A stretch of 64,000 nucleotides of DNA from Sandaracinaceae bacterium (GCA_040218145.1 JAVJQK010000109.1:1-64000), one strand, 5' to 3'. Shown: positions 1,132-63,801, counted from the stretch's first letter. Numbers and translations are program-made. Notes: a model not told the origin generated them from the sequence alone.

Positions 1132-1232
1132 AGGGCTACGCCTCAGGGACGCTCTTCGTCTTATCGTCATTCCGGAAAGATCATTCAATCCAGCCACTTC
1201 GAGCTATGACGATATGACGAAGAGCGTCCCTC
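1132..1232 (+). repeat. Hairpin repeat R1, copy 1
   Basis: A 101-bp element. A conserved box GGCTACGCCTCA leads into a 25-nt left arm (1146-1170, beginning GGGACGCTCTTCGTC). A 35-nt loop follows, then a right arm (1206-1230) that is the reverse complement of the left with one mismatch. Copies 2 (3933-4032) and 3 (7344-7442) have the same arm length, loop length and 5' box. Bases 980-1131, between the HU-arm gene and this element, show no gene. Confidence 0.85.
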
Positions 1233-1272
1233 GTCCCAGCACTGACACCTAGCTCCAGCACCTCCTCAGCTC

Positions 1273-2535
1273 TCAGAGCCCGGACACCGTGACCGGGGTC
1301 GCTCGGTTGCGGGTGCTTCCGTCGCCCGCCGCTCCCCACTGGTTGATGCCCCAGCAGCGGATCTGATCGTCCGTCTGCAACGCGCAGATGTCCCAGTCGC
1401 CGACGCCCACCTCGAGGACGGGCCCGAGCCCCTCGATCCGCACCGGCCGCGGGACCGCGACACTCGGGATCGTGACCATTCCCCAGCACCAGAGCGAGCG
1501 ATCGACGTCGATCGCGCAGGCCATCGGGCGACTCGCCTCGATGTGCGTCGCGGACGGGAACGAGGCGGTCGGGGAGAGCTCGGCCCGATACAGCGACGGG
1601 CCCGTCGAGCCCACGGCGGTGGTCCCGTCGCCGAGCTGCCCCGACTCATTCAAGCCCCAGCACCAGACGTGCCCCTCCGATCGCCGCACACAGGAGAACC
1701 CGTACCCGGTGGTGACCTGCTCCACGTCGTCGAGGCCCGGGACGTCCGCAGGCTCCCGGCGCGGGTCCGTCGTCCCGTCGCCCAGCTGCGCGTACTCGTT
1801 GTCGCCCCAGCACGCGACGGTGCCGTTGCGCCGGCTCGCGCAGCTGTGCCACAGCGACGTCGCGAGGCTGACGACGTCGCGAAGCCCGACCACCTCCACG
1901 GGAAGGTCGCGGTCGAGAGTCGTGCCGTCGCCGAGCTGACCAAACCGGTTGAAGCCCCACGCGAGCACGGTCCCGTCGACCTGGATGGCAAACGTGCTCG
2001 TGTAGCCCGCGGCGATTCGCGTCGCGCGCACGCCCTCGAGGTCGCGAGGCTCAGTTCGCCGTTCACGCGTCCCATCGCCAACCTCTCCCCAGAGGTTTCG
2101 GCCCCAGCACGCGACGGAGCCATCCCGACGACGGGCGCAGCTGTGACTCACCCCGACCGCGACCTCGACCACGTCGTCGAGCCCGATCACATCGACGGGG
2201 CTCGTGCGGTCCGTCGTCGTGCCGTCGCCGAGCTGGCCGTGGTCGTTGTGGCCCCAACAGGCGACGCGGCCGTCGTCGCGCACGAAGCAGACGTGCCCGT
2301 CGCCTCCGACGGCGAGGCGACGGGGAGGCAGCTCCGACGATTCGAGACCCCCACCGTCCGCGGGGCTCGCGTCGGCCGGCCTCGGGCCCGCGTCCCGGTC
2401 ATCTGCGAGACGGTGGGACAGGTAGCAGCCCGGCGACACGATGGTCAGCGCGAGGAGCGGCCAGAGTGAGCTCACGCCCCGCGCCCTTCGGCGAGATGTG
2501 GACGGAGCGATGTTGGCACGACCTGGCATGGGCAT
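1273..2535 (-). CDS. RCC1-repeat lipoprotein
   Basis: A predicted lipoprotein of about 420 residues. The N-terminus has an Arg-rich stretch, a hydrophobic segment (SSLWPLLALTIV) and a lipobox-like SPGC, then a short Asp/Ala/Gly linker. The rest is at least six RCC1 (regulator of chromosome condensation) repeats, recognisable by CWGxNxxGQLGDGTT cores alternating with V..L..G..HSCA cores, so a seven-bladed propeller is likely. Cysteines recur at fixed positions in the blades. Bacterial RCC1 lipoproteins have no known enzymatic activity; a surface or periplasmic binding role is inferred. I chose the ATG at 2535 because GGACGGAGA lies just upstream; the frame stays open to 2613. The stop lies 41 bp beyond repeat R1 copy 1. 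Confidence 0.85.
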   Translation of the reverse strand: MPMPGRANIAPSTSRRRARGVSSLWPLLALTIVSPGCYLSHRLADDRDAGPRPADASPADGGGLESSELPPRRLAVGGDGHVCFVRDDGRVACWGHNDHGQLGDGTTTDRTSPVDVIGLDDVVEVAVGVSHSCARRRDGSVACWGRNLWGEVGDGTRERRTEPRDLEGVRATRIAAGYTSTFAIQVDGTVLAWGFNRFGQLGDGTTLDRDLPVEVVGLRDVVSLATSLWHSCASRRNGTVACWGDNEYAQLGDGTTDPRREPADVPGLDDVEQVTTGYGFSCVRRSEGHVWCWGLNESGQLGDGTTAVGSTGPSLYRAELSPTASFPSATHIEASRPMACAIDVDRSLWCWGMVTIPSVAVPRPVRIEGLGPVLEVGVGDWDICALQTDDQIRCWGINQWGAAGDGSTRNRATPVTVSGL

Positions 2536-2619
2536 TCTCCGTCCAGGGCCCAGAGCAAGCGCCATGCCTGGGGAAGCTGAGTCCCCGCTGGGGTCGGCGC
2601 CTCGGACTCCCACCGGTCA

Positions 2620-2960
2620 GCCCCGGAGACCCGGTTCGGCTCTTGGCAGCGTCCGGTTCGGTCGAGCGAGCACTGCGCTCCCCCTCCATCGACGACATCG
2701 CGGTGGGGGCCGACGGGACGATCGCTTCCCTCTCTCGCGGCGTGATCCGGCGACGGGACCCCAGCGGACATGTGCTCAGGATCCCCGCGGAGGGGACGAT
2801 CCCCGGCACGACTGCGACGATGGACATCGAGGTCGATGGACACGGCGTGATCTGGGTCGCGTCGACGGAGGGCCTCTTCATCGGAACGGACGAGGGCCTC
2901 CACACCCTGACCGCGCCGATGGTGCCGGCCGCCCGCGGCCCGCTCGGCGAGGTCTGCATC
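2620..2960 (+). pseudogene. Two-component-type beta-propeller remnant
   Basis: A plus-strand frame, open from 2466 to the stop at 3023, encodes propeller-like sequence in its middle: SIDDIAVGADGTIASLSRG, then IEVDGHGVIWVASTEGLF followed by IGTDEGLHTLT, the pattern of Reg_prop blades. Upstream of about 2620 the frame merely overlaps the RCC1 gene's 5' end. After about 2950 the coding signal switches to the opposite strand. I read this as an internal fragment of a longer propeller protein that has lost both ends. A short intact gene starting at 2466 is the alternative. Confidence 0.45.
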
Positions 2961-3145
2961 CTCGGCTCGGGCCCGGAGCTCTCCGCGAACGATCTACGTC
3001 GCGTCGAATCAGCCGGGCCGTAGAAGGGATTGCCGCGACTCGGCCCCACGCGCGCGCCCGCGACGATGTACTGCGTCTCGGTGCCAAGCATGGGTTCGGC
3101 CTCGTAGCCTGCGGCTGCGAGATGAGCGCGAGCTGGCGCGCGGTC
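2935..3145 (-). pseudogene. Unidentified minus-strand coding remnant
   Basis: One minus-strand frame reads sensible protein sequence here (HLAAAGYEAEPMLGTETQ, then YIVAGARVGPSRGNPFYG, then SFAESSGPEPRMQTS). It has no start, no stop and no continuation on either side, and it meets the end of the propeller remnant tail-to-tail. I do not recognise the family. Bases 3146-3313 show no gene. Confidence 0.25.
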
Positions 3146-3313
3146 CAGGTGACGCGTCCGGCTGGTCGTAGGCGCGCGGCCGGTGTGGCCAGGCGCGGTG
3201 TGGGTGGTGGGTCCACCGGCGCTCACGGGAGCCGGGATCTCGCTCGTCCCCGGCCTTCCGGTTCTCGGACGCTGTTAGGATCGGTCGACCGCACCTTCAA
3301 CATCGAGGTCTTC

Positions 3314-3796
3314 GTGTTCCACTACGTGTCGTCGGCCCTCTCCATGACACTCCTCGTCGCCGCCTGCGGGGGTGCGACCGCCGAGGATCCAAGCGCGGAG
3401 TCAGCGCCGAACGAGGCCCGACCGGCCGCGGAGCCGACGCCCGCGGCGCCGACCACGCCTGGCTCCGTCGACGCGGCCGCGCTGCACGGCGACTGGGTCC
3501 ACCTGCACGAGTCCGACTCCGACGGAGTCGAGCTGTGGACGCACGAAGCGAGCCCCCCTCTCTCGCGCTTCCGGGGCACGATGTCGCTCCGCGCGGACGG
3601 CACCGCGCGCTACGCCGTTCTTCACCCGGCAGACGCGCACTACACGGCGAACGGCACGTGGGCGCTCGAGGGAAGCACGCTCGTCGTCACATACACTGCG
3701 ACGCATATGCCCGCGGACGACCCCGGGCGCACCGTCACGGTCCGCTACACGGTCGTCTCGGCGAACGCCGACGAGCTCCGCCTCCGAACACTCTGA
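3314..3796 (+). CDS. Small lipoprotein, lipocalin-like
   Basis: A lipoprotein of about 160 residues. A GTG start at 3314 (CGAGG five bases upstream) gives a short hydrophobic segment ending in the lipobox LLVAAC-GG; the ATG at 3344 would leave too short a signal. A Pro/Ala/Glu linker is followed by about 110 residues of predicted beta strands (GDWVHLHESD, SRFRGTMSLRADGTARY, NGTWALEGSTLVVTYT). This 'GxW... xGTxxL' layout resembles lipocalin-like heat-stable lipoprotein domains. No catalytic residues can be named. It is followed by the H2 hairpin 58 bp downstream. Confidence 0.65.
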   Translation: MFHYVSSALSMTLLVAACGGATAEDPSAESAPNEARPAAEPTPAAPTTPGSVDAAALHGDWVHLHESDSDGVELWTHEASPPLSRFRGTMSLRADGTARYAVLHPADAHYTANGTWALEGSTLVVTYTATHMPADDPGRTVTVRYTVVSANADELRLRTL

Positions 3797-3853
3797 CGCC
3801 ACGCGAGCCAGGTCTCATCGGGCCTCAGCTCGAGCTGGAACTCGCGCCCGGCC

Positions 3854-3919
3854 GGGGACGATCCTCGTCATTCGTCGAACTCGCGCGCCAGAGTTTGACG
3901 AATGAATAGGATCGTCCCC
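3854..3919 (+). repeat. Long hairpin element H2
   Basis: A 66-bp near-perfect palindrome. The left arm 3854-3876 (starting GGGGACGATCCTCGTC) pairs with 3897-3919 with two mismatches. The interior continues the stem (AACTC with GAGTT) to leave an 8-nt loop, for about 29 paired positions. There is no T-run after it on either strand, so a simple intrinsic terminator is unlikely. The arm tip resembles the R1 arm (GGGACGCTCTTCGTC), and repeat R1 copy 2 begins only 13 bp downstream. Confidence 0.75.
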
Positions 3920-3932
3920 GTGACAGGAAGAG

Positions 3933-4032
3933 AGGGCTACGCCTCAGGGACGCTCATCGTCTTATCGTCTTTCGGGAAAACTCAATCGATCCAGCTGCTT
4001 TTAGTTGTGACGATATGACGAAGAGCGTCCCT
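3933..4032 (+). repeat. Hairpin repeat R1, copy 2
   Basis: Second R1 element: 5' box GGCTACGCCTCA, left arm 3947-3971, loop of exactly 35 nt, right arm 4007-4031. It has diverged more than the other copies (CATCGTC in the left arm, GTGACG in the right). It lies between the H2 hairpin and repeat R2 copy 1 in the 366-bp gene-free stretch 3797-4162, which these three elements largely fill. Confidence 0.85.
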
Positions 4033-4048
4033 CCGGTCAGTTGGACCA

Positions 4049-4149
4049 ATCGTCCCCCGGCACGAGACACCCGGCGCAAAGGCCGCCTTCGCACTTACCG
4101 CAAGCGGGGCTGTCAGCGCCCCGGTCGAGACCCCGGTTTGGGTCTTGCC
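4049..4149 (-). repeat. Repeat R2, copy 1
   Basis: A 101-bp segment matching 5780-5868. On the plus strand both begin ATCGTCCCCCGGC and carry CGAGACACCCGGCGC, ACCGCAAGC and CTGTCAG, and end GGGTCTTGCC. Copy 1 has an extra unit with a repeated CCCCGGT. It lies 13 bp beyond the stop of the minus-strand lipoprotein gene at 4163. Its outer end, read on the minus strand, carries CCGGGGGACGAT, close to the tip of H2. Confidence 0.65.
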
Positions 4150-4162
4150 ACACGAGCAGGCC

Positions 4163-5122
4163 TCAACCCCCGGCTGCGGCGACCTCGCTCTCGGCAACCA
4201 CCTCACCCATGCGGTCCTGCAGCACGACGGCGGCCGGCGTGAAGTCGCCAGTCTCCACGACGAGGGCGTACGGCCGGATCACGGCCGCACAGCGCGCGAT
4301 GCGCGACGGATGGTGGGGGCGCAGGATCAACCGCTCGCCGTCGCGGTAGGCGCCGAACAGAACCGGCGCGCCGCCCGTGCACGGCAGGCCCGCGCGGAGG
4401 GTCATGCGTGTCACGCCGGGACCCGCCGGGGTGACCTCGCCGAGGCCGACGCCCGTCTCGCCGTCGGTCGCCTCCGCCTCGGCGTGATTGACGGCCAGCG
4501 CCTGCTCGAGGCGAGGCGCGCCCGGCTGGTGCGCCTCGTACGCCGCAACTTCGACCTCGCCGATCTGTGCAGGCTCGCCCTGCCCGGGGCGCCCGACCTG
4601 GACTTCGTACGATCCGCCTTGCAGCGGACCGATGAGCAGCGTCACGTCATATGGACGCACGCAGCGCGATCGCATGTCGGTGGGCGCGGAGTAGAGTCGG
4701 ATCACGCCGCCGTCCAGGTGCGCGAGGAGCGACGGCTCCGGGGCGCAATATGACGTGTAGCCGCTGAGCACGACCCGCACGTAGCCACGGTCCACCGCTT
4801 CGATCTCCGCGGTCATCTCGGCCGGTGCGCCCTGCTCGCGGGCCCGGACTTCGTCGATCCGAACGCTCGCGGGCGTCCCCGGAACCGGCACCGGCTCGGT
4901 GACACTGCCCTCCGGCTGCGGTGGCGCCTCGTCTGCGCCGGGCGGCGCCTCGCGCGACGGCTCCGTGTCTGCCGACGCCTCGGTGTCCTCCGCGCCGGGT
5001 GTCGTCTCCGTCTCTGCGTTGGCAGCGACGTTCGCGGGCTCCGTGACTTGCTCGGTCTCGCCGCCACAGGCGACAGCAGCGAGCGCGAGGGCGAAATACA
5101 GGACATGGGAAGGTGCGTGCAT
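4163..5122 (-). CDS. Lipoprotein with an internally duplicated domain
   Basis: A lipoprotein of about 319 residues. The start at 5122 is supported by AGGA eight bases upstream; it gives a signal MHAPSHVLYFALALAAVACGG with lipobox AVAC. A Glu/Thr/Pro-rich linker of about 60 residues follows. The remainder holds two copies of an unrecognised domain. Each has a conserved Gly-x-Val-x-Val/Leu strand, a Cys-x-x-x-Pro segment, DG-x-x-I/L-x-L, and Arg-Cys followed by PY-x-x-L/V. The paired cysteines in each copy suggest one disulphide per domain (inference). It is a single gene; repeat R2 copy 1 lies immediately 3' of it. Confidence 0.75.
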   Translation of the reverse strand: MHAPSHVLYFALALAAVACGGETEQVTEPANVAANAETETTPGAEDTEASADTEPSREAPPGADEAPPQPEGSVTEPVPVPGTPASVRIDEVRAREQGAPAEMTAEIEAVDRGYVRVVLSGYTSYCAPEPSLLAHLDGGVIRLYSAPTDMRSRCVRPYDVTLLIGPLQGGSYEVQVGRPGQGEPAQIGEVEVAAYEAHQPGAPRLEQALAVNHAEAEATDGETGVGLGEVTPAGPGVTRMTLRAGLPCTGGAPVLFGAYRDGERLILRPHHPSRIARCAAVIRPYALVVETGDFTPAAVVLQDRMGEVVAESEVAAAGG

Positions 5123-5349
5123 CGTTGGGTTCCTCATGGTTGACCGGAGTGACCTCGCCGCCGCGGTCGACCTTGGTTGGCCGTGGAATACCACGCCCGA
5201 CGGTGCAAGTATCTTCGCGAAGGAAGATTGGTCTCGCCCGCGTCGAACGCGCCTCCTCGCCGGTCGCGCGTCCTCGCAGGCCGCGTGTTTGCCTGATCGC
5301 ATGAGTCGTTGACGGTGCCGCGGCCCTCTTCGCCGAGGGTGCTTCGCGG

Positions 5350-5752
5350 GTCAGAGGTCGAGCTAGACGTCCCCGGTGGTGAGCCACTGCGAAGCCCACC
5401 TCGATCCGGTCGGTCCGCCCATCGGGATCCCCCACGAAGGGCGGGCGAGCTCCCCCGGGCCGCTCGCCCCGGATCAGCTTCACCCGCGCGCCCTCGACCA
5501 ACGGCCGCGCTCCTTCGTCGACGCCCTTCGCGAACCCGGCGAGAACGAAAAACGAGCTACCGTCTGCCTCGCAGATCGAGACCCCGCCCCGCAAGCACGG
5601 CGCGGCCTCGGGGGCGCCGACAATCCCCCTTCGCAGCCGCCCCTTTCGAAGGCGCGCTGTGCGCACGCGATCGCCACGCCGCGGGGTTCGCTGCCGTGGC
5701 CGTGGAGCGTCAGGCCTTCGGAACCGAGTCCAGTAGGGGCTTCGATGCACAC
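5350..5752 (-). pseudogene. Frameshifted gene remnant, unknown family
   Basis: Two overlapping minus-strand frames together read one protein. The upstream part (CIEAPTGLGSEGLTLHGHGS, then VAIACAQRAFERGG) is in one frame. The downstream part (ICEADGSSFFVLAGFAKG, then ARVKLIRGERPGGARPPFVG, then DRIEVGFAVAHHRG) is in another, with the switch near 5600-5640. No stop or start is convincing, so I treat it as decayed. The family is not recognised. The rest of the gene-free stretch 5123-5779 shows nothing else that I can support. Confidence 0.4.
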
Positions 5753-5779
5753 GACCGGCTCAGCAACGGCTGCTCATCC

Positions 5780-5868
5780 ATCGTCCCCCGGCCCGAGACA
5801 CCCGGCGCGACGGGCCTCTTCGCACGCACCGCAAGCAGAACTGTCAGAAGCCCCGGTTGGGTCTTGCC
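5780..5868 (-). repeat. Repeat R2, copy 2
   Basis: An 89-bp match to 4049-4149, lacking the extra CCCCGGT unit of copy 1. It overlaps the last 25 bp of the AgmX-type gene, whose final residues are therefore encoded by the repeat. Both R2 copies sit at the 3' end of minus-strand genes in the same orientation. Confidence 0.65.
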
Positions 5869-6269
5869 CGCGACCGCCTCGCCGGGCCTGCGAACTCGAA
5901 GGGGATCCGAACGGTGATCGCCCGCGCCCGGGTTGGGAAGCGCAGCCGCCGGAGCTTGGTGACCAGACAACGGTCGATCTCCGGGCGCCCGAGCGACGAA
6001 CGGAGCGAGCGCGCGCGGCTCACGCGTCCGTCCGCTTCGATGGTCAGGAGGATGATGGTCGTTCCCCGGATTCGGGGCGCCGGGTCCACCATCCGCTCGT
6101 AGCACGCGCTGAGCGAGTGACTCGCGCGCCCGACCACCGCGAGCACCTCGCGTGGAGCACGTACCCCGGGAAGCTCGGCGTGCTCCCGGTCCTGGGCGTA
6201 GACGGCGGGCACCGACATCAGGGCGAGCGCGACCGCGAGCACCCATCGTCCCATGTTCTTCGACGCCAC
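5844..6269 (-). CDS. Periplasmic protein with AgmX/TonB-like C-terminal domain
   Basis: About 141 residues. A signal peptide (MGRWVLAVALALMSVPAVYAQ) precedes a single domain of the AgmX/TonB-C type common in myxobacteria: SLSACYERMVDPAPRIRGT, a central LLTIEADGRVSRARSL strand pair, then CLVTKLRRLRFP. The two cysteines occupy the positions typical of this domain. The listed start is GTG at 6269; ATG at 6254 would equally give the signal peptide, and neither has a clear ribosome binding site. The C-terminus runs into repeat R2 copy 2, so the original tail may have been replaced. A role in envelope or motility machinery is only family-based inference. Confidence 0.7.
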   Translation of the reverse strand: MASKNMGRWVLAVALALMSVPAVYAQDREHAELPGVRAPREVLAVVGRASHSLSACYERMVDPAPRIRGTTIILLTIEADGRVSRARSLRSSLGRPEIDRCLVTKLRRLRFPTRARAITVRIPFEFAGPARRSRARPNRGF

Positions 6270-6399
6270 CCGAACAGAGTGCAGACGCAGCGCGCCAGGT
6301 CAAACGCACAACGGAGTACGCTCGAGCCGGCGTCCAGTGGTGGGGCGCGGCAGCATGCGTCTGATCCGGCCCGGCCTCTTCGTTCCTCCGGTCTTCTCG

Positions 6400-6483
6400 G
6401 GGGATAGGACGCATGAACGCTCTTTCAACCTTGTCAGGATACGCGTTCTGCGAAACCGCCTGGGCTGAGGCGCGCCGAAGGAG
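6400..6483 (+). repeat. Interspersed repeat R3, copy 1
   Basis: An 84-bp element from GGGGATAGGACGCATGAACG to CGCGCCGAAGGAG. It is nearly identical (about four differences) to 9000-9083 and closely related to 11376-11449. Terminal inverted repeats are not evident. An internal GAACGC/GCGTTC pair could form a small stem. Its right end abuts a serpin C-terminal coding remnant. Bases 6270-6399 upstream show no gene. Confidence 0.85.
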
Positions 6484-6558
6484 TTCCTGTACGCGATCCA
6501 CGACGTCGAGACGGGCAGCCTGCTCTTCCTCGGGCGGGTCACGACCCCGGCGGGTTGA
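6484..6558 (+). pseudogene. Serpin C-terminal remnant
   Basis: Immediately after repeat R3 a plus-strand frame reads FLYAIHDVETGSLLFLGRV, then TTPAG and a stop. This matches the last strands of serpins (protease inhibitors), whose conserved ending is PFLYxIxDxxTGxxLFxGRVxxP. Only about 24 residues survive. No upstream serpin sequence is visible on the far side of R3, so the remainder has been deleted or displaced. Confidence 0.65.
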
Positions 6559-6629
6559 GCGCTTCACGCGCGTCTCGGGCCGCCGGCCAGGAACGGGAAG
6601 CTCAGCCTCGCATCGGCGTAGCTTGCGGC

Positions 6630-7196
6630 ATGCTCAGGATCGCACTTCTCTTCGGCTCGGTGCTCTCGCTCGCGGCGTGCGGCGCCTCGGGCGTGCCGGC
6701 CTCGGGGGTGCCGGCCTCGGGCTTGCCGGCCGCCGTCGGCGTCATCGACATGGGGACCGCGGTGCAGCAAACCCTGGCCGGTCAGGCCGCGCGCGTTCGC
6801 GTGATGCGGTCGTTCGCGGCCCGGCAGCGCGAGCTCGACGAGCGGCACCGAGCCCTCGTCGAGATGCGCGCGCGGCTCGACGCGCGCGGCGGGCCGATGG
6901 CCCAGGCGGTCGGCTCGACGCCGACGTACGCCGAGGTGATCGCCTACGCGGAGGAGCTCCAAGCACTGCAGCGCGACCACGCGACCCATCAGCAGCAGCT
7001 CCAGCGCGAGGAGCGAGCGCTCGCGGGCGAGCTGGTGGGTCGCTTGCGTCGCATCGCCGATCGCCTCGCCGCGGAGCGCGGCGTGATCGTGGTCTTCGAC
7101 GTCGACGGGTATGCGGCGCCCGGCGTGCGGCGGCTCGATCTGACGAACGAGCTGATCGAGCGCTACGACGCCGAGTACCCCACGAGTACGCAATGA
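6630..7196 (+). CDS. Skp/OmpH-like lipoprotein
   Basis: A lipoprotein of about 188 residues. The ATG at 6630 gives MLRIALLFGSVLSLAACGAS with lipobox LAAC. Next comes a linker built from near-identical VPASG units (15-bp tandem repeats). The rest follows the Skp/OmpH periplasmic chaperone family: GVIDMGTAVQQT at the first strand, a long charged coiled coil, LQREERAL, then RIADRLAAERGVIVVFDVDG and DLTNELIERYD at the end. Skp proteins bind unfolded outer-membrane proteins as trimers. A lipid-anchored form would be held at a membrane. It is alone, and a perfect 16-bp palindrome follows 11 bp after the stop. Confidence 0.8.
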   Translation: MLRIALLFGSVLSLAACGASGVPASGVPASGLPAAVGVIDMGTAVQQTLAGQAARVRVMRSFAARQRELDERHRALVEMRARLDARGGPMAQAVGSTPTYAEVIAYAEELQALQRDHATHQQQLQREERALAGELVGRLRRIADRLAAERGVIVVFDVDGYAAPGVRRLDLTNELIERYDAEYPTSTQ

Positions 7197-7207
7197 GTCG
7201 AGGAGCC

Positions 7208-7223
7208 GGCCGAGCGCTCGGCC
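7208..7223. other. Perfect 16-bp palindrome
   Basis: GGCCGAGCGCTCGGCC is self-complementary along its whole length and starts 11 bp after the Skp-like gene's stop. No T-run follows, so terminator function is uncertain. Repeat R4 copy 2 begins at its last base. Confidence 0.5.
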
Positions 7224-7304
7224 GCGAATCGAGGAACGACGACGAAGAACCCGTCCGCACTCCGAGGAGGAGTGACGCTGGGTTCCGTCGCGCTTCGAGG
7301 GCCG
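7223..7304 (+). repeat. Interspersed repeat R4, copy 2
   Basis: Matches 51-130 over the blocks CGCGAATC, AGGAACGACGACGA, CGAGGAGGAGTGACGC and TCGAGGGCCG. It is followed 40 bp later by hairpin repeat R1 copy 3. Confidence 0.6.
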
Positions 7305-7343
7305 GCGAGCGATTCGTCGCGTCGCAGTTCGCGCTGAGGACGG

Positions 7344-7442
7344 AAGGCTACGCCTCAGGGACGCTCTTCGTCTTATCGTCATTCGAGAAAGCTCAATCAA
7401 TCCAGCGGCTTCGAGCTATGACGATATGACGAAGAGCGTCCC
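7344..7442 (+). repeat. Hairpin repeat R1, copy 3
   Basis: Third R1 element: box GGCTACGCCTCA, left arm 7358-7382, 35-nt loop, right arm 7418-7442, with one mismatch between the arms. It closely resembles copy 1 and shares with it the extension CCCAGCACTG beyond the right arm. Two tandem 17-bp units (7442-7458 and 7459-7475, CTCCTCCCAGCACTGCG) follow directly and end exactly where truncated istB begins. Confidence 0.85.
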
Positions 7443-7476
7443 TCCTCCCAGCACTGCGCTCCTCCCAGCACTGCGT

Positions 7477-8040
7477 CAGTACCAGTCGACGCTGCGGCTG
7501 ACGACGATGGGCTCGCTGCTGACCCCCGACTTCATCGCCGAGGGCCACTCGGTGATCCTCGTCGGCAAGACCGGCCGCGGCAAGACGCACCTGGCGATCT
7601 CCCTCGCGTATCGGGCGATGCAGAATGGTTTCGACGGGCTCTTCGTGAACTGCACGGAACTCATCGACGACCTCTCGTGCGCGAGTCGTGACGGTCGGCT
7701 TCGCGAAGCGCTCGCGCGCTACCTCAACCGCACGTGCTCGTCATCGACGAGGTCGGCTACCTCACGAACGGCGACGACGCCGCCAACGTGCTGTTCCACG
7801 TCGTCAACGAGCGTCACATCAAGCGGCGCTCGATGGTCTTCGCGACGAACAAGCACCCGAAGCGCTGGGGCAAGGTGCTGCACGACGACGACCTCGCCGA
7901 GGTCATCGTCGATCGTGTGCTCGAGCGAGGACGGCTGCTGCGCTTGGACGGGCCGTCGACCCGCACCAAGCACTTGGCGGACGACATGGACTCGAGCGAC
8001 GATCAGGATGAAGCCGAGCGGCTCAGAATTTCTGGAAAAC
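7477..8040 (+). pseudogene. Truncated, frameshifted IS21-type istB
   Basis: IstB is the AAA+ ATPase helper of IS21-family transposases. Similarity begins at QYQSTLRLTTMGSLLTPDF, includes the Walker A GKTGRGKTHLAI, and runs to ELIDDLSCASRDGRLREAL. The reading frame then shifts near 7727 (loss of one C would restore YLNPHVLVIDEVGYL), and the Walker B LVIDEVGYL, sensor NKHPKRWGKVLHDDDLAEVI and GPSTRTKHL continue in the third frame. The first 80 or so residues of IstB and the whole istA transposase are missing. The 5' break coincides with the 17-bp tandem units after R1 copy 3. Confidence 0.85.
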
Positions 8041-8060
8041 GCGGCTCAGATTTTCCGGAA
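8019..8060 (+). repeat. IS21-type terminal direct repeats
   Basis: Two 19-bp direct repeats, 8019-8037 and 8042-8060 (CGGCTCAGAATTTCTGGAA and CGGCTCAGATTTTCCGGAA), differ at two positions and are spaced 23 bp start to start. IS21-family elements characteristically carry such multiple repeats inside each end. These therefore mark the right end of the istB-bearing element. The interrupted host gene resumes at about 8061. Confidence 0.65.
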
Positions 8061-8062
8061 CC

Positions 8063-8227
8063 TACACCGACGAGTTCCAGATGGTCGACATCGTGGATCC
8101 GGCCATCGGTCCGACCACCATCTCCCTTCGACGGCTCTACCAATGGGTCACCCCCGCACTTCGAGACAAGAACGTTCTCGTCAAGGCTGGGCGTCGGCGG
8201 TCTACTCCGCGTGAGGTCCAACCGTGA
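8063..8227 (+). pseudogene. 3' remnant of a gene interrupted by the IS21-type element
   Basis: From the IS end a plus-strand frame reads 54 residues (YTDEFQMVDIVDPAIGPTT, then SLRRLYQWVTPALRDKN) to a TGA at 8225-8227 that overlaps the next gene's GTG as GTGA. The overlap shows that it was once the upstream partner of a coupled pair. The family is not recognised. No 5' part can be found on the other side of the element in this window. Confidence 0.55.
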
Positions 8228-59451: not shown

Positions 59452-62166
59452 GTGCGAGAGCAGCTGATCGTCTGGCATCGCTGGCTGCCTCCGCGCGAAG
59501 AGGGCGGGGCGCAGCTCGAGCGCGTCTCCGCCTGGCGCCGCGAGGTCGAGGCGCGCTTCGAGGTGGTGGGCGGACGGCTGCTCGGGAGCCTCGGCGCGAG
59601 CCTGGCCGCGCGCTTCGATCCGGAGGAGACCGTCGACGTGCTCGGGCAGTGCCTCGAGCTGCTCGCGGCCGCGGACGCGCGCGAGATCGACGTGTGCTTC
59701 GGGGTCGCGGTGGGCCCGGTGCGCGAGCTGGACCACGGCGTGGTGAGCCCCGCCATCGAGCTGGCGCAGCTGCTCGCCAACCGCGCGCGGCCCGGCGAGC
59801 TGGTGCTCGACCCATCGGCGCGCGACCTCGCGTCGGAGGATCTGCTGATGGGCCGGCAGGTCGCGGCGGGCGCGGGCGCGCCCCGCGGCACGACGGTGGA
59901 CCGCGCGCACCCGCGGCGCAGCGACAACGCGGACGCCATCGCGGAGCTGCGCCCGCCCAGCATGCCCCCCATCGCGCGATCGCTGAAGCACGAGATCGAG
60001 CGCGCCCTGACCGCGGGGGAGTGCCGCACGTTCATCCTCCGCGGCCCGGTCGGGGGCGGCGCGACCGAGCTGCTCGCCGATCTCGAGCCGCCCCAGGAGC
60101 GCGGGCGCATGTTGCGGATCGGCGCCGCGCCCGGCGGCATGGCGCCGCTCGCGAGCCTGCGGCTCGGGCTCCTGCGCCGCTTCGGGACGCCGCTCCAGGT
60201 GAAGCAGGCGCTCTCCGGGGCGGGCGCGACACCCGGCGGCGCGCGCGTCCTGGCCCGCGTGGCGGCGGGCGAGCTGGTCCCGCTCTCGACCCTCTCGGAC
60301 GGCCTCGTCGAGCTGCTCGAGGCGGAGCGCGCGCAGGGCCGGCGCTCGTGGCTCGTGCTCAGCCCGCTGAGCCTTGTCGACGGCGCCACCCTCGGCGCGC
60401 TGCTCGAGGCCCGGCGCCGCGGCGGCGACTTCGTCCTCTTCGGCCGCTACCCCATGGACCTCCCGCTGCCTCGTCCGCTCGCGGAGCTCGACGAGCCGCT
60501 GAGCGAGCTGACCCTGCCGCCGCTCAAGACCTCCGACGCCCGGGTGGTGGCCGAGGCCGTGCTCGGGGATCGCACCGACGGCGACGTCGCGCGGCGCGTG
60601 GCGGTGCTCGGCGGCGACACGGTGCTCGGGGTCGTCGAGGCGGCCCGCACGCTCATCGCCACCGGAGAGCTGGTCCGCGAGGGCGAGGGGTTCGTCTGGC
60701 GCGCGGGACCGCGCAAGGGCGCCGACGCCGCCAGCACCCAAGAGCTGCTGACCAAGCGCCTCGAGCTGCTGGACGCGAGCGCGCGGCGGGTCCTCGAGGC
60801 GCTCTGTGTGGTGCCCGACGGCTCGCTCCGCGGCCTGCTGCAGGAGGTGGCGAGCCTGGACGGAATCGCCGAAGCGCAGTTCGACGAGAGCCTCCGGCTG
60901 CTCGAGAAGGAGGCGCTCGCGCGCGGCGACGAGCGCCCTCGGCCCGCGTCGAGCCTGCTCCGCTGGAGCGTGTTGAGCCTGGTCCCCCCCGCGCGGGCGA
61001 TGGAGCTGCACCGGTTCGTCGGAGAGGCGCTCCGCAGCCGCGCCGAGGCGGAGCCGCCGCTGCGGGCGGAGCTCGGCTTCTACCTGGTGGAGGGCGGCCT
61101 CGACGAGGAGGGACGCCAGGCGATCACCGAGGTGATCGAGTCGACGCTCGCGGCCGGCTACGAGCGCGCGGCCCGTCAGCTGTCGGGGTGGCTCGCGGCC
61201 GTGAAGACCCGCCGGGAGGAGGCCGCGCGAGGTCAGCGCGCGACGCCCGTGCCGCCGCCCCCCGAGGCGCTCGAGGAGGGGCCTCCGTCGAGCGAGATCT
61301 CGCTGGACGAGCTCCTGGAGGAGGCCGCAGCCGCGGCGCCCCGGCCGCCACCGCCTCCGCCTCCCGCGCCTCCGCCGCCCGCGTCGCGCGCCGCCGTCGC
61401 GCTGATGAGCGCCCCCGCGGATCCGCCCGAGGACACGCTCGTGCTGGACGACCTCGGCGGGCTGGAGGGGCAGCTTCGGGCGCCGCCCGTCCCTGCCGAC
61501 TCCGTCGGCCTCGAGCCGGTGGGTCCCGCCGCGAGCGAGCTCGAGTTCATGGACGACGTGGACGCGTTGCTCGAGGAGGCCGTCGACGCGGAGCTCTTCG
61601 ACGACGGCGTGGGCACGACGCCCGGGCTCCTGCACGCCGCTGTTCCCTCGGAGACGGGGCCTTCGGAGCCGGCCCTCTCGCAGACGATGGAGGACATGCC
61701 GAGCGAGCGGACCAGCGTCACCCCGGCCCCCGTCCGTTCGTTCGTGGAGGAGGCGGTCCGCGCCTTCCGGGAGCGCGACTTCGAGGCGCTCGAGGCCACC
61801 ATCGGCCGCGCCATCGCCGACGGCGGCGATCTCGGCGCGGTCGGGCGGGTGCGGGCGGTTGCGGAGCTGGCCCGCGGAGACCTCGAGGCGGCCCGCGGCG
61901 CGCTCCGAGAGGCGCGGGAGCGAGGACGCGACGCTCCGTCGTCGCGGGCTCGCTCCTTGCTCGCGGAGGCGCTGCTCGATCTCCGGGCCGGCGAGCCGAT
62001 GCGTGGCGTCCGGGGCGGCCTCGCGGCCCTGGCCGTCTCCCGCACCCTCTCGGATCCCCGCGGCGAGAGCGCCGCGCTTCACACCCTCGCCGCCTGTTTC
62101 CGGGCGCTCGGCCGCGACGAGGAGGCCGCGGGCCTCGACGCAGCGCGGCCACAGCCAGCCGAATAG
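59452..62166 (+). CDS. Large regulatory protein: cyclase-like, degenerate NTPase and TPR regions
   Basis: 904 residues, GTG start. The N-terminal 140 residues resemble a degenerate class III nucleotide cyclase domain (VGGRLLGSLGASLAARFDPE, EIDVCFGVAVGPVRELDHGV, ELAQLLANRARPGELVLDPS). Catalytic aspartates are not conserved. The next 300 residues resemble a STAND/AAA ATPase (ILRGPVGGGATELLADLEPP, LVLSPLSLVDGATLGALLEA), but the P-loop reads GPVGGGAT, without the essential Lys. After a Pro/Glu-rich linker (about 585-740) the C-terminal 160 residues are TPR-like. It is probably a non-catalytic scaffold or sensor in one transcript with pspA. Confidence 0.65.
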   Translation: MREQLIVWHRWLPPREEGGAQLERVSAWRREVEARFEVVGGRLLGSLGASLAARFDPEETVDVLGQCLELLAAADAREIDVCFGVAVGPVRELDHGVVSPAIELAQLLANRARPGELVLDPSARDLASEDLLMGRQVAAGAGAPRGTTVDRAHPRRSDNADAIAELRPPSMPPIARSLKHEIERALTAGECRTFILRGPVGGGATELLADLEPPQERGRMLRIGAAPGGMAPLASLRLGLLRRFGTPLQVKQALSGAGATPGGARVLARVAAGELVPLSTLSDGLVELLEAERAQGRRSWLVLSPLSLVDGATLGALLEARRRGGDFVLFGRYPMDLPLPRPLAELDEPLSELTLPPLKTSDARVVAEAVLGDRTDGDVARRVAVLGGDTVLGVVEAARTLIATGELVREGEGFVWRAGPRKGADAASTQELLTKRLELLDASARRVLEALCVVPDGSLRGLLQEVASLDGIAEAQFDESLRLLEKEALARGDERPRPASSLLRWSVLSLVPPARAMELHRFVGEALRSRAEAEPPLRAELGFYLVEGGLDEEGRQAITEVIESTLAAGYERAARQLSGWLAAVKTRREEAARGQRATPVPPPPEALEEGPPSSEISLDELLEEAAAAAPRPPPPPPPAPPPPASRAAVALMSAPADPPEDTLVLDDLGGLEGQLRAPPVPADSVGLEPVGPAASELEFMDDVDALLEEAVDAELFDDGVGTTPGLLHAAVPSETGPSEPALSQTMEDMPSERTSVTPAPVRSFVEEAVRAFRERDFEALEATIGRAIADGGDLGAVGRVRAVAELARGDLEAARGALREARERGRDAPSSRARSLLAEALLDLRAGEPMRGVRGGLAALAVSRTLSDPRGESAALHTLAACFRALGRDEEAAGLDAARPQPAE

Positions 62167-62211: not shown

Positions 62212-62415
62212 GGCGCTTGATCGGGCGGCCTCGTCCACTTATGGTTACCCTCCGGGCCAGCCCTCGGGCTGCCCAAGGCCCCCTCCGACCCCGCAGCGAT
62301 CGCCACCCCCCTTTCGGCATCCTCGGGTCTCGACCGGGTCGCTCCTCACCTTCCCCTCGGGTCGCCCCCTCGGTGCGATCTCGCAGGCACACGTGCAACC
62401 CCTCCCGGAGAGTCG

Positions 62416-63801
62416 ATGAACGGTTCGTTCCCTGCTCGGAAGCTCGAGATCTACAACTTCAATCGCATGGACGCGATCCCGCAGCTCGCGAAGCTGCCCG
62501 CGGCGCAGCGCGACGCGATGAAGGCGGTCGCCGCGGTCCTCCCGTTCAAGGTCAACCAGTACGTGCTCGAGGAGCTGATCGACTGGGACCGCGTCCCGGA
62601 CGACCCGATGTTCCGGCTGACCTTCCCCCAGCGCGGCATGCTGGCCGACGACGACTTCGCGGCGATGCTGAAGCTCGTGAAGGGCGGCGCCTCGAAGAAG
62701 GAGCTCGTCGCGGCCGCGCGTCCGATCCAGATGCGCCTCAACCCGCACCCCGCGGGGCAGCTGGCGCACAACGTCCCGGACGCGGAGGGAGAGCCGCTCT
62801 CGGGGATGCAGCACAAGTATCGCGAGACGGTGCTCTTCTTCCCGACGCAGGGTCAGACCTGTCACAGCTACTGCACCTACTGCTTCCGCTGGGCGCAGTT
62901 CGTGGGGCTCGAGGACCTGAAGTTCGCGAGCAAGGAGCCCGAGCGGCTCGCCGAATACGTGCGCGCCCACCCCGAGGTGACGAGCGTGCTGTTCACCGGG
63001 GGCGACCCGATGGTGATGAAGACCAAGATCTTTCGCCGCTACGTCGAGCCGCTCCTCGAGATCGAGCACGTCCAGAGCATCCGCATCGGCACCAAGGCGC
63101 TCGCCTACTGGCCGCAGCGCTTCGTCGCGGGTGAGGACGCCGACGCGCTCATGCGGCTCTTCGAGGAGATCACCCAGGCGGGCAAGCACGTGGCGGTGAT
63201 GGGGCACTACAGCCACTGGAAGGAGCTCTCCACGCCGATCGCGGAGGAGGCGGTGCGCCGCTGCCGGAGCGCCGGCGCGACCGTGCGAACGCAAGCCCCG
63301 CTGATCCGCCACGTCAACGACGACCCGCAGATCTGGAACCGGATGTGGCGGACGCAGCTGCGGCTCGGCGCGGTCCCGTACTACTTCTTCGTCGAGCGCG
63401 ACACCGGGCCCAAGCAGTACTTCGAGGTCCCGCTCGCGCGCGCGCTCGAGATCTACGAAGGCGCCTACCGGAACATCTCCGGTCTCGGCCGGACGGCGCG
63501 CGGACCGAGCATGAGCTGCACGCCGGGCAAGGTGCTCGTCGACGGCGTGGCCGAGGTGGCGGGTGAGAAGGTCTTCGTCCTCAAGATGCTCCAGGCGCGG
63601 GATCCGAGCTGGGTCAACCGGCCGTTCTTCGCGCGCTTCGACCCGAACGCGACGTGGATGAACGACCTCAAGCCCGCCTTCGGGCAGAGCGAGTTCTTCT
63701 GGGAGGCGCCGCTCCGGGAGCTGCTGGCGTCCAAGAGCTGGCGCAAGAACGACTCGGGCGAGGTCCACCTCACGAGCTTCGGGCCCGTCGACGCGGAGTA
63801 G
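62416..63801 (+). CDS. KamA-family radical SAM enzyme (lysine 2,3-aminomutase-like)
   Basis: 461 residues with GGAGAG five bases before the ATG. The radical-SAM cluster motif is C149-x3-C153-x2-C156 in TCHSYCTYCFRWAQF. LLFTGGDPM-like SVLFTGGDPMVMKTKIF, IRIGTKALAYWPQRF, VRTQAPLIRHVNDDP and LGAVPYYFFVERDTG are KamA features. KamA enzymes use SAM and PLP to move an amino group on lysine or related amino acids. In this protein the PLP-lysine region of true KamA (near the C-terminus) is not clearly recognisable, and the C-terminus is longer. Another substrate, as in EpmB or glutamate 2,3-aminomutase, is therefore possible. Confidence 0.82.
   Translation: MNGSFPARKLEIYNFNRMDAIPQLAKLPAAQRDAMKAVAAVLPFKVNQYVLEELIDWDRVPDDPMFRLTFPQRGMLADDDFAAMLKLVKGGASKKELVAAARPIQMRLNPHPAGQLAHNVPDAEGEPLSGMQHKYRETVLFFPTQGQTCHSYCTYCFRWAQFVGLEDLKFASKEPERLAEYVRAHPEVTSVLFTGGDPMVMKTKIFRRYVEPLLEIEHVQSIRIGTKALAYWPQRFVAGEDADALMRLFEEITQAGKHVAVMGHYSHWKELSTPIAEEAVRRCRSAGATVRTQAPLIRHVNDDPQIWNRMWRTQLRLGAVPYYFFVERDTGPKQYFEVPLARALEIYEGAYRNISGLGRTARGPSMSCTPGKVLVDGVAEVAGEKVFVLKMLQARDPSWVNRPFFARFDPNATWMNDLKPAFGQSEFFWEAPLRELLASKSWRKNDSGEVHLTSFGPVDAE

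Follow-up and report, generated by a model that had tools for sequence, protein, structure and literature searches.

R1, a REPIN-like hairpin family, and its probable RAYT transposase partner in a marine myxobacterium

Near the start of a 64,000-nucleotide stretch of DNA (the window, G000:C109:1-64000), which is part of the 11.06-Mb assembly of a marine myxobacterium (Sandaracinaceae), there are three copies of a hairpin element, here termed R1, which consists of two inverted, conserved arms of approximately 25 nt, with GGGACG/CGTCCC tips, around a spacer of 35 nt. R1 is very probably a non-autonomous mobile hairpin similar to the REPINs, the hairpin-forming doublets of repetitive extragenic palindromes (REPs), and would be copied in trans by a REP-associated tyrosine transposase (RAYT) of subclass 2.1, that is, a TIRYT with a C-terminal helix-turn-helix (HTH), whose gene lies at the locus C122 of the same genome, between two R1 copies. 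The arms are conserved, the spacer is of fixed length, the family is present in many copies, a RAYT gene is flanked by it, and the RAYTs of other genomes of the order are paired with arms of their own.

Conserved arms and a spacer of fixed length

A search of the genome with a covariance model returned 95 hits, counting both strands, which correspond to approximately 50 R1 loci, and those inspected are intergenic. When three mismatches at most were allowed, the arm 23-mer was matched 47 times on the forward and 52 times on the reverse strand of the genome, while the same 23-mer read backwards, as a control, gave zero matches. In the stretches read, 45 of the 49 two-armed elements are exactly 85 nt long, and the remaining four measure 70, 77, 124, and 133 nt, the two longest being compound. 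The family is also found in G232, the second genome of this species. When one genome of each GTDB species was scanned for exact matches, in a set that may omit the window's own genome, R1 was recovered only in the metagenome-assembled genome MED-G138 (Sandaracinaceae), apparently the same as G232, and the Rfam, phage, and plasmid collections gave no useful match.

The three window copies have arms with one to three mismatched positions and a loop of 35 nt in every case, and all are predicted to fold strongly as single-stranded DNA, with z scores of -8.8, -5.6, and -8.7 for copies 1, 2, and 3, respectively, against dinucleotide shuffles, none of which (0/200) folded as well. Within the window, the arm 15-mer, with up to three mismatches, has 22 matches, against an expected 8.0 +/- 2.6. 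The original prediction, made from this DNA alone, had described three hairpins of identical architecture, and their sites, arm and loop lengths were confirmed, with the 85-nt geometry recurring genome-wide; the arm of copy 2 reads GGGACGCTCATCGTC, which differs from the 15-mer given there. The proposal that the hairpin should be sought elsewhere with a covariance model, and would be doubtful if absent from the rest of the genome, was borne out by the recovery of the approximately 50 loci.

The same source had treated a 5' box as common to the copies, and the box GGCTACGCCTCA does directly precede all three window hairpins. Together with the right-hand TCCTCCCAGCACTG, it is limited to the subfamily represented in the window, and the other R1 clusters carry different flanks of 10-16 nt.

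Among 61 distinct 85-mers, nearly all of the variation in the arms falls at positions 9, 10, and 16, and the arms are otherwise almost invariant. The pair 16/70 is T-T in 54 of these copies and the pair 10/76 is unpaired in 39, so that the arm variation mostly breaks pairs, and not one two-sided compensatory change was found in the arm pairs of the 61 copies; covariation of the arms was thus discarded as evidence for the fold. Each arm also holds a 4-bp mini-palindrome, GACG-CTCTT-CGTC (GACG-N5-CGTC), with positions 9 and 10 in its loop. The spacer, by contrast, varies in sequence and keeps its length of 35 nt in 45 of 49 elements. Invariant arms that lack compensation, combined with a spacer of fixed length, point to the recognition of arm sequence and spacer length, rather than to a drifting sequence held together by its fold. 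What is conserved in R1 is, then, the arm sequence and the length of the spacer. The earlier description of diverged arm and loop bases stands for the spacer, and fails for the arms, which have hardly diverged; the view that a constant geometry with drifting sequence would signal selection on the folded form is not supported by the same data.

The RAYT gene at C122 and its relatives

The window itself contains no transposase gene of the expected type, as had been predicted. A search of the genome with PF01797, at an E value of 1e-3, returned two genes only and missed the RAYT gene at C122, which was found with a profile built from related RAYTs (35 genomic hits, including one at C122:61395). 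The encoded protein has the HuH motif SSHVHYG and the Y---NP motif (A)YLHRNP, and both motifs are kept across its clade, except for a change of NP to NV in C87/G232:C137. The start codon lies 46 nt beyond the end of an upstream R1 hairpin (61270-61354), and 63 nt separate the stop codon from a second, downstream one (62358-62442). By loop similarity, these two copies are apparently inverted, the first being minus and the second plus, with the minus call weakly based (24 versus 22 matched loop positions); the loop of the upstream copy has GGCAACCGCTCGAAA in common with the group at C141.

The best family match of the C122 protein is the REP-associated tyrosine transposase NF047646 (NCBIfam), at an E value of 4e-8 and 33 bits, which is below the cut-off of 80, and PF01797 did not match it at an E value of 0.1. 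A C-terminal HTH is weakly indicated in the clade, with HTH_23 in two of its six members (best E value 1e-4), a DnaA-like match at the C-terminus of a more distantly related RAYT (E value 0.002), and a match of the clade profile to DnaA in the PDB at an E value of 0.2, while the profile search for such a domain in the C122 protein itself gave nothing significant. In its core motifs and flanking inverted repeats, as read from sequence, the C122 gene fits subclass 2.1, with one base of the repeat motif different, the HTH weakly detected, and NF047646 below its cut-off.

Together with its five nearest distinct relatives, which are found elsewhere within the order, the C122 RAYT forms one clade of six distinct RAYTs, at 52-60% identity to C122, that comprises C122, C87 (with its G232 orthologue), G024:C55, G052:C22, G004:C150, and G217:C15. 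Inverted repeats with GGGACG tips enclose all six, and are found at 17 of the 20 RAYT loci considered in all; of the other three loci, one runs off its contig. Such a tip is given by 0.85% of random positions and an equally good inverted repeat by 1.3%, a control which was drawn from loci of this genome only, with slightly different flank windows, and serves as a yardstick rather than as an exact test. The tip is common to all of the RAYT arms, and the sequence that follows it is specific to each RAYT, as would be expected of transposases that each recognize an arm of their own. The arm of the C87 RAYT, for example, is GGGGACGATCCTACCCATCTACCCAAACTC, and that of G024, from another family, is GGGGACGCTCTGCGTCATTGCGTCATTCGG on both sides, while the G004 RAYT lies in a 987-bp element with GGGGACGATCCTCGTCATTTCGTCATTCTC at either end, a variant of a degenerate arm pattern with 101 matches in that genome. 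In G024, the RAYT arm GGGACGCTCTGCGTCATTGCGTC has 23 genomic matches, mostly in outward-tipped inverted doublets of 61-91 nt without a RAYT, and stand-alone copies of the RAYT's own arm are thus present in two other genomes (G024 and G004).

The C122 transposase probably copies the R1 hairpins. This agrees with the link originally proposed to a Y1 or RAYT-type transposase acting in trans, and with the suggestion that a gene flanked by the same hairpin be looked for, which was found in this genome, with relatives elsewhere flanked by their own GGGACG-tipped arms. By analogy with related systems, the RAYT would bind the arm when it is single-stranded, on the lagging strand of a replication fork, for example, its HuH/Tyr active site would cut at or beside the GGGACG tip, and it would then re-join the hairpin elsewhere. 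The autonomous form would be arm-RAYT-arm, and the form without a gene would be R1, as in the G024 doublets. We infer the single-strand cleavage, the cut site, the strand, and transposition itself from the established biology of the RAYT and IS200/IS605 transposases (PMC6006769; PMC3116915).

Two further candidates for the partner of R1, the IS200-type tnpA on C113 and the RAYT on C3, were set aside, both having other ends. The tnpA gene at G000:C113:225027 (L012), like that at G232:C217 (L152), has two upstream copies of a repeat with CAACCTAGCGTCCCC. At the same chromosomal site, G000:C3 (L013) and G232:C4 (L157) hold different RAYT elements, with proteins that are 60% identical and terminal repeats that differ (GGGACGGTGTTTACTTG and GGGACGGTGTTCGGTTGTTAAGTTCCGG), so that one RAYT element has apparently been exchanged for another.

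Clusters, gene turnover, and neighboring elements

Of 29 pairs of neighboring R1 copies, up to 10 kb apart, 27 are co-oriented, and the remaining two each include the copy that lies upstream of the C122 RAYT. At C141 and C80, the co-oriented copies are mostly 0.7-3 kb apart. Loop identity is 86% within clusters, and averages 55% between them. Apart from short repeats, the DNA between neighboring copies is unrelated, which rules out the tandem duplication of units of gene plus hairpin as the source of the clusters. The co-oriented clusters could have arisen by local gene conversion, or by hopping over short distances on one strand; the GC skew of stretches of 33-64 kb was too weak to place the replication strand.

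The orthologous stretches of the two conspecific genomes contain 12 breakpoints of gene content, nine of which are no more than 60 nt from R1 in one genome or both, compared with 6-7% of positions in either genome. The loci were chosen for holding R1, and the 12 breakpoints come from six events, five of them touching R1, with the breakpoints of a single event not being independent of each other. Between C71 and C277, the DNA enclosed by the same two R1 copies differs, being 1.8 kb long with one gene in one genome, and 1.3 kb long, with another gene, in the second. These breakpoints and exchanges, together with the spacing, orientation, and unrelated contents of the C141 and C80 arrays, are what would be seen if R1 were the recombination site of a gene-cassette array, comparable to the attC sites of the integrons, in which a cassette of one gene and one R1 is gained, lost, or exchanged at R1. 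We consider this improbable. No integron integrase exceeds the family cut-off (TIGR02249) in the genome, the ends of R1 read GGGACGC...GCGTCCC, without the attC core box (R'/R'' GTTRRRY), and the genes between the copies run in both directions. The event at C122, moreover, has no end at R1, and for those at C138 and C23, one of the ends lies at R1 in a single genome of the pair. The same breakpoint pattern would be yielded by homologous recombination between repeats of 85-115 bp. A cassette system run by the RAYT itself, with HuH/Tyr cleavage of single-stranded R1 leading to the gain, loss, or swapping of the genes between co-oriented copies, is likewise thought unlikely.

The constant length of the inverted ends and the high copy number might also suggest a miniature inverted-repeat transposable element (MITE) bounded by 25-bp terminal inverted repeats and moved by a double-strand (DDE) transposase. 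This is very improbable, given that HuH/Tyr RAYT genes of several genomes have arms of this type on their flanks, that no target duplication is obvious at the three window copies, and that REPINs usually have a 35-nt core between 25-nt arms; no DDE transposase gene bounded by R1 arms was seen, in searches that did not look for one systematically. A functional RNA or terminator-like structure under selection at the RNA level, which the strong predicted fold and the intergenic position might recall, is scarcely credible for arms that vary mostly by breaking pairs, without compensation or an Rfam match of weight, and whose type is also seen in the terminal repeats, 1 kb apart, that enclose RAYT genes.

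A number of observations weigh against R1 as a hairpin copied by the C122 RAYT. Local clustering, a shared orientation within the cluster, and cluster-specific loops are untypical of the REPINs, which scatter over the extragenic space. The R1 copy upstream of the C122 RAYT is among the most diverged of all, and the gene need not, then, be the active source. As the 10-16-nt flanks are also common within the subfamilies, the length of the mobile unit may exceed 85 nt. Comparison of the two conspecific genomes revealed neither a clean empty site nor an excision product, and R1 is present in both at C33, C7, and most of the C80 sites; the search of the flanks for empty sites found either R1 in both genomes or replaced neighbors, and the lack of a clean site is attributable to the extent of the turnover of the neighboring gene content.

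The features of the window, and the partner gene, are listed in Table 1. The second hairpin family, R2, has the GGGACG tip in common with R1, and its arms are closest to those of the G004 and C87 RAYTs.

Table 1. Coordinates of the hairpins and flank boxes of the window, and of the RAYT gene at C122.
Feature	Position	Strand	Remarks
R1 hairpin copy 1	1146-1230	+	arms 1146-1170 and 1206-1230, spacer 1171-1205; 85 nt
R1 hairpin copy 2	3947-4031	+	arms 3947-3971 and 4007-4031; 85 nt
R1 hairpin copy 3	7358-7442	+	arms 7358-7382 and 7418-7442; 85 nt
5' flank box GGCTACGCCTCA of copy 1	1134-1145	+	specific to one R1 subfamily
5' flank box of R1 copy 2	3935-3946	+	
5' flank box of R1 copy 3	7346-7357	+	
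R2 hairpin, second related family, GGGACGATCCTCGTCATTCGTC arms, 64 nt	3855-3918	.	just upstream of R1 copy 2
RAYT (REP-associated tyrosine transposase) gene	G000:C122:61401-62291		intact, 297 aa

Other repeats are found in the vicinity of R1. Positions 1-166 of the window hold a MITE-like repeat of approximately 165 bp, with imperfect inverted ends (AGTCACCCGGATCAGC...GCTGTTCCGGGTGACT, 76% over 37 nt), which has matches at more than 10 places in G232. Immediately upstream of R1 copy 3, positions 7197-7330 resemble, by eye, the middle of this repeat (GAACGACGACGA...GAGGAGGAGTGACGC), and directly to the right of that copy lies a truncated gene similar to IstB, the IS21 helper ATPase (7426-8211), which matches only the middle of the profile. 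A repeat starting ATCGTCCCCCGGCACGAGACACCCGGCGC was also recognized by eye at 4052-4150 and 5777-5870, with one further copy in G232:C277. At G000:C141 (L075, family D2/D5), a third small palindrome family, TCTCCGCGGAGACGCTTCAG, has several copies in 14 kb, among R1 and R2. Another GGGACG-tipped family surrounds a non-transposase gene, with a lipoprotein-like gene lying between inverted copies of GGGGACGCTAGGTTGACTTGTTCACAC in G232:C223 (L181, reverse strand, approximately 6702-7650), which is absent from the orthologous site of G000, where one half of the repeat adjoins R1.

Comparison with known systems

The REPINs have invariant arms and a variable spacer (PMC3116915), and R1 is like them in its two inverted, strongly conserved arms, with a spacer that varies in sequence and is constant in length (Bertels & Rainey 2011, PMC3116915), and in forming a hairpin as single-stranded DNA, being non-autonomous, and having a cognate RAYT in the genome. 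It differs in the arm, which has no GTAG-type tetranucleotide and is tipped by GGGACG (its reverse complement, CTAC, is a regular feature of one flank only, that of the window's subfamily), in its co-oriented groups with group-specific spacers, in its link to a different RAYT subclass, and in the lack of compensatory changes in the arms. Apart from the GTAG-type tetranucleotide, R1 fits the definition of a REPIN, and would move as a unit.

The TIRtrons, or TIRYT elements (Di Nocera 2013, PMC3733652), are probably the same as TnpA_REP subclass 2.1 (Quentin 2018, PMC6006769), whose little-studied RAYTs, with a C-terminal HTH, form the second largest subclass of the 2018 survey of Y1 transposases, which reported no REP-like sequences near their genes (PMC6006769). 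In some species, TIRYT repeats form moderately abundant families, as dimers or clusters (Di Nocera, PMC3733652). The likeness lies in a RAYT-like gene with a C-terminal HTH, weakly detected in C122, between inverted repeats, which in the published elements start with GGGG (PMC3733652). The published consensus is GGGGWSAS, however, compared with GGGACG and a RAYT-specific sequence here, which is one base off, given that most of the clade repeats read GGGGACG, with G as the seventh base, rather than the A of GGGG[AT][CG]A[CG]. In addition, the C122 RAYT carries a complete 85-nt hairpin on each side, instead of a single repeat.

The CGTC-tagged REPs (PMC3733652) resemble R1 in the terminal CGTC/GACG motif and the predominance of inverted dimers, but their stem of 8-9 bp, loop of 4-5, and CCA tail (families 1-4) are absent from R1, and they were reported to lack a dedicated transposase (PMC3733652), whereas R1 appears to have one. 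The attC sites of the integrons are comparable as co-oriented hairpins between mostly single, unrelated genes, with gene turnover at the hairpins, and differ in their boxes, their integrase, which has no counterpart over the cut-off here, and the direction of the genes, which is not uniform in R1 arrays.

The kind of element is, then, already known from the dimer-forming repeat families of Di Nocera et al. (PMC3733652), and what is new for subclass 2.1, as far as can be told from the open-licence literature, is a population of fixed 85-nt hairpins together with its RAYT, in a myxobacterium. One clade of subclass 2.1 RAYTs, paired genome by genome with its own GGGACG-tipped arms, provides candidate pairs of enzyme and substrate, and in two families of the order, the arms of the RAYT are matched to populations of stand-alone arms or hairpins. 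Should the excess of breakpoints at the hairpins be borne out by further strains, it would tie R1 to the turnover of the accessory genome in a group of bacteria with very large genomes.

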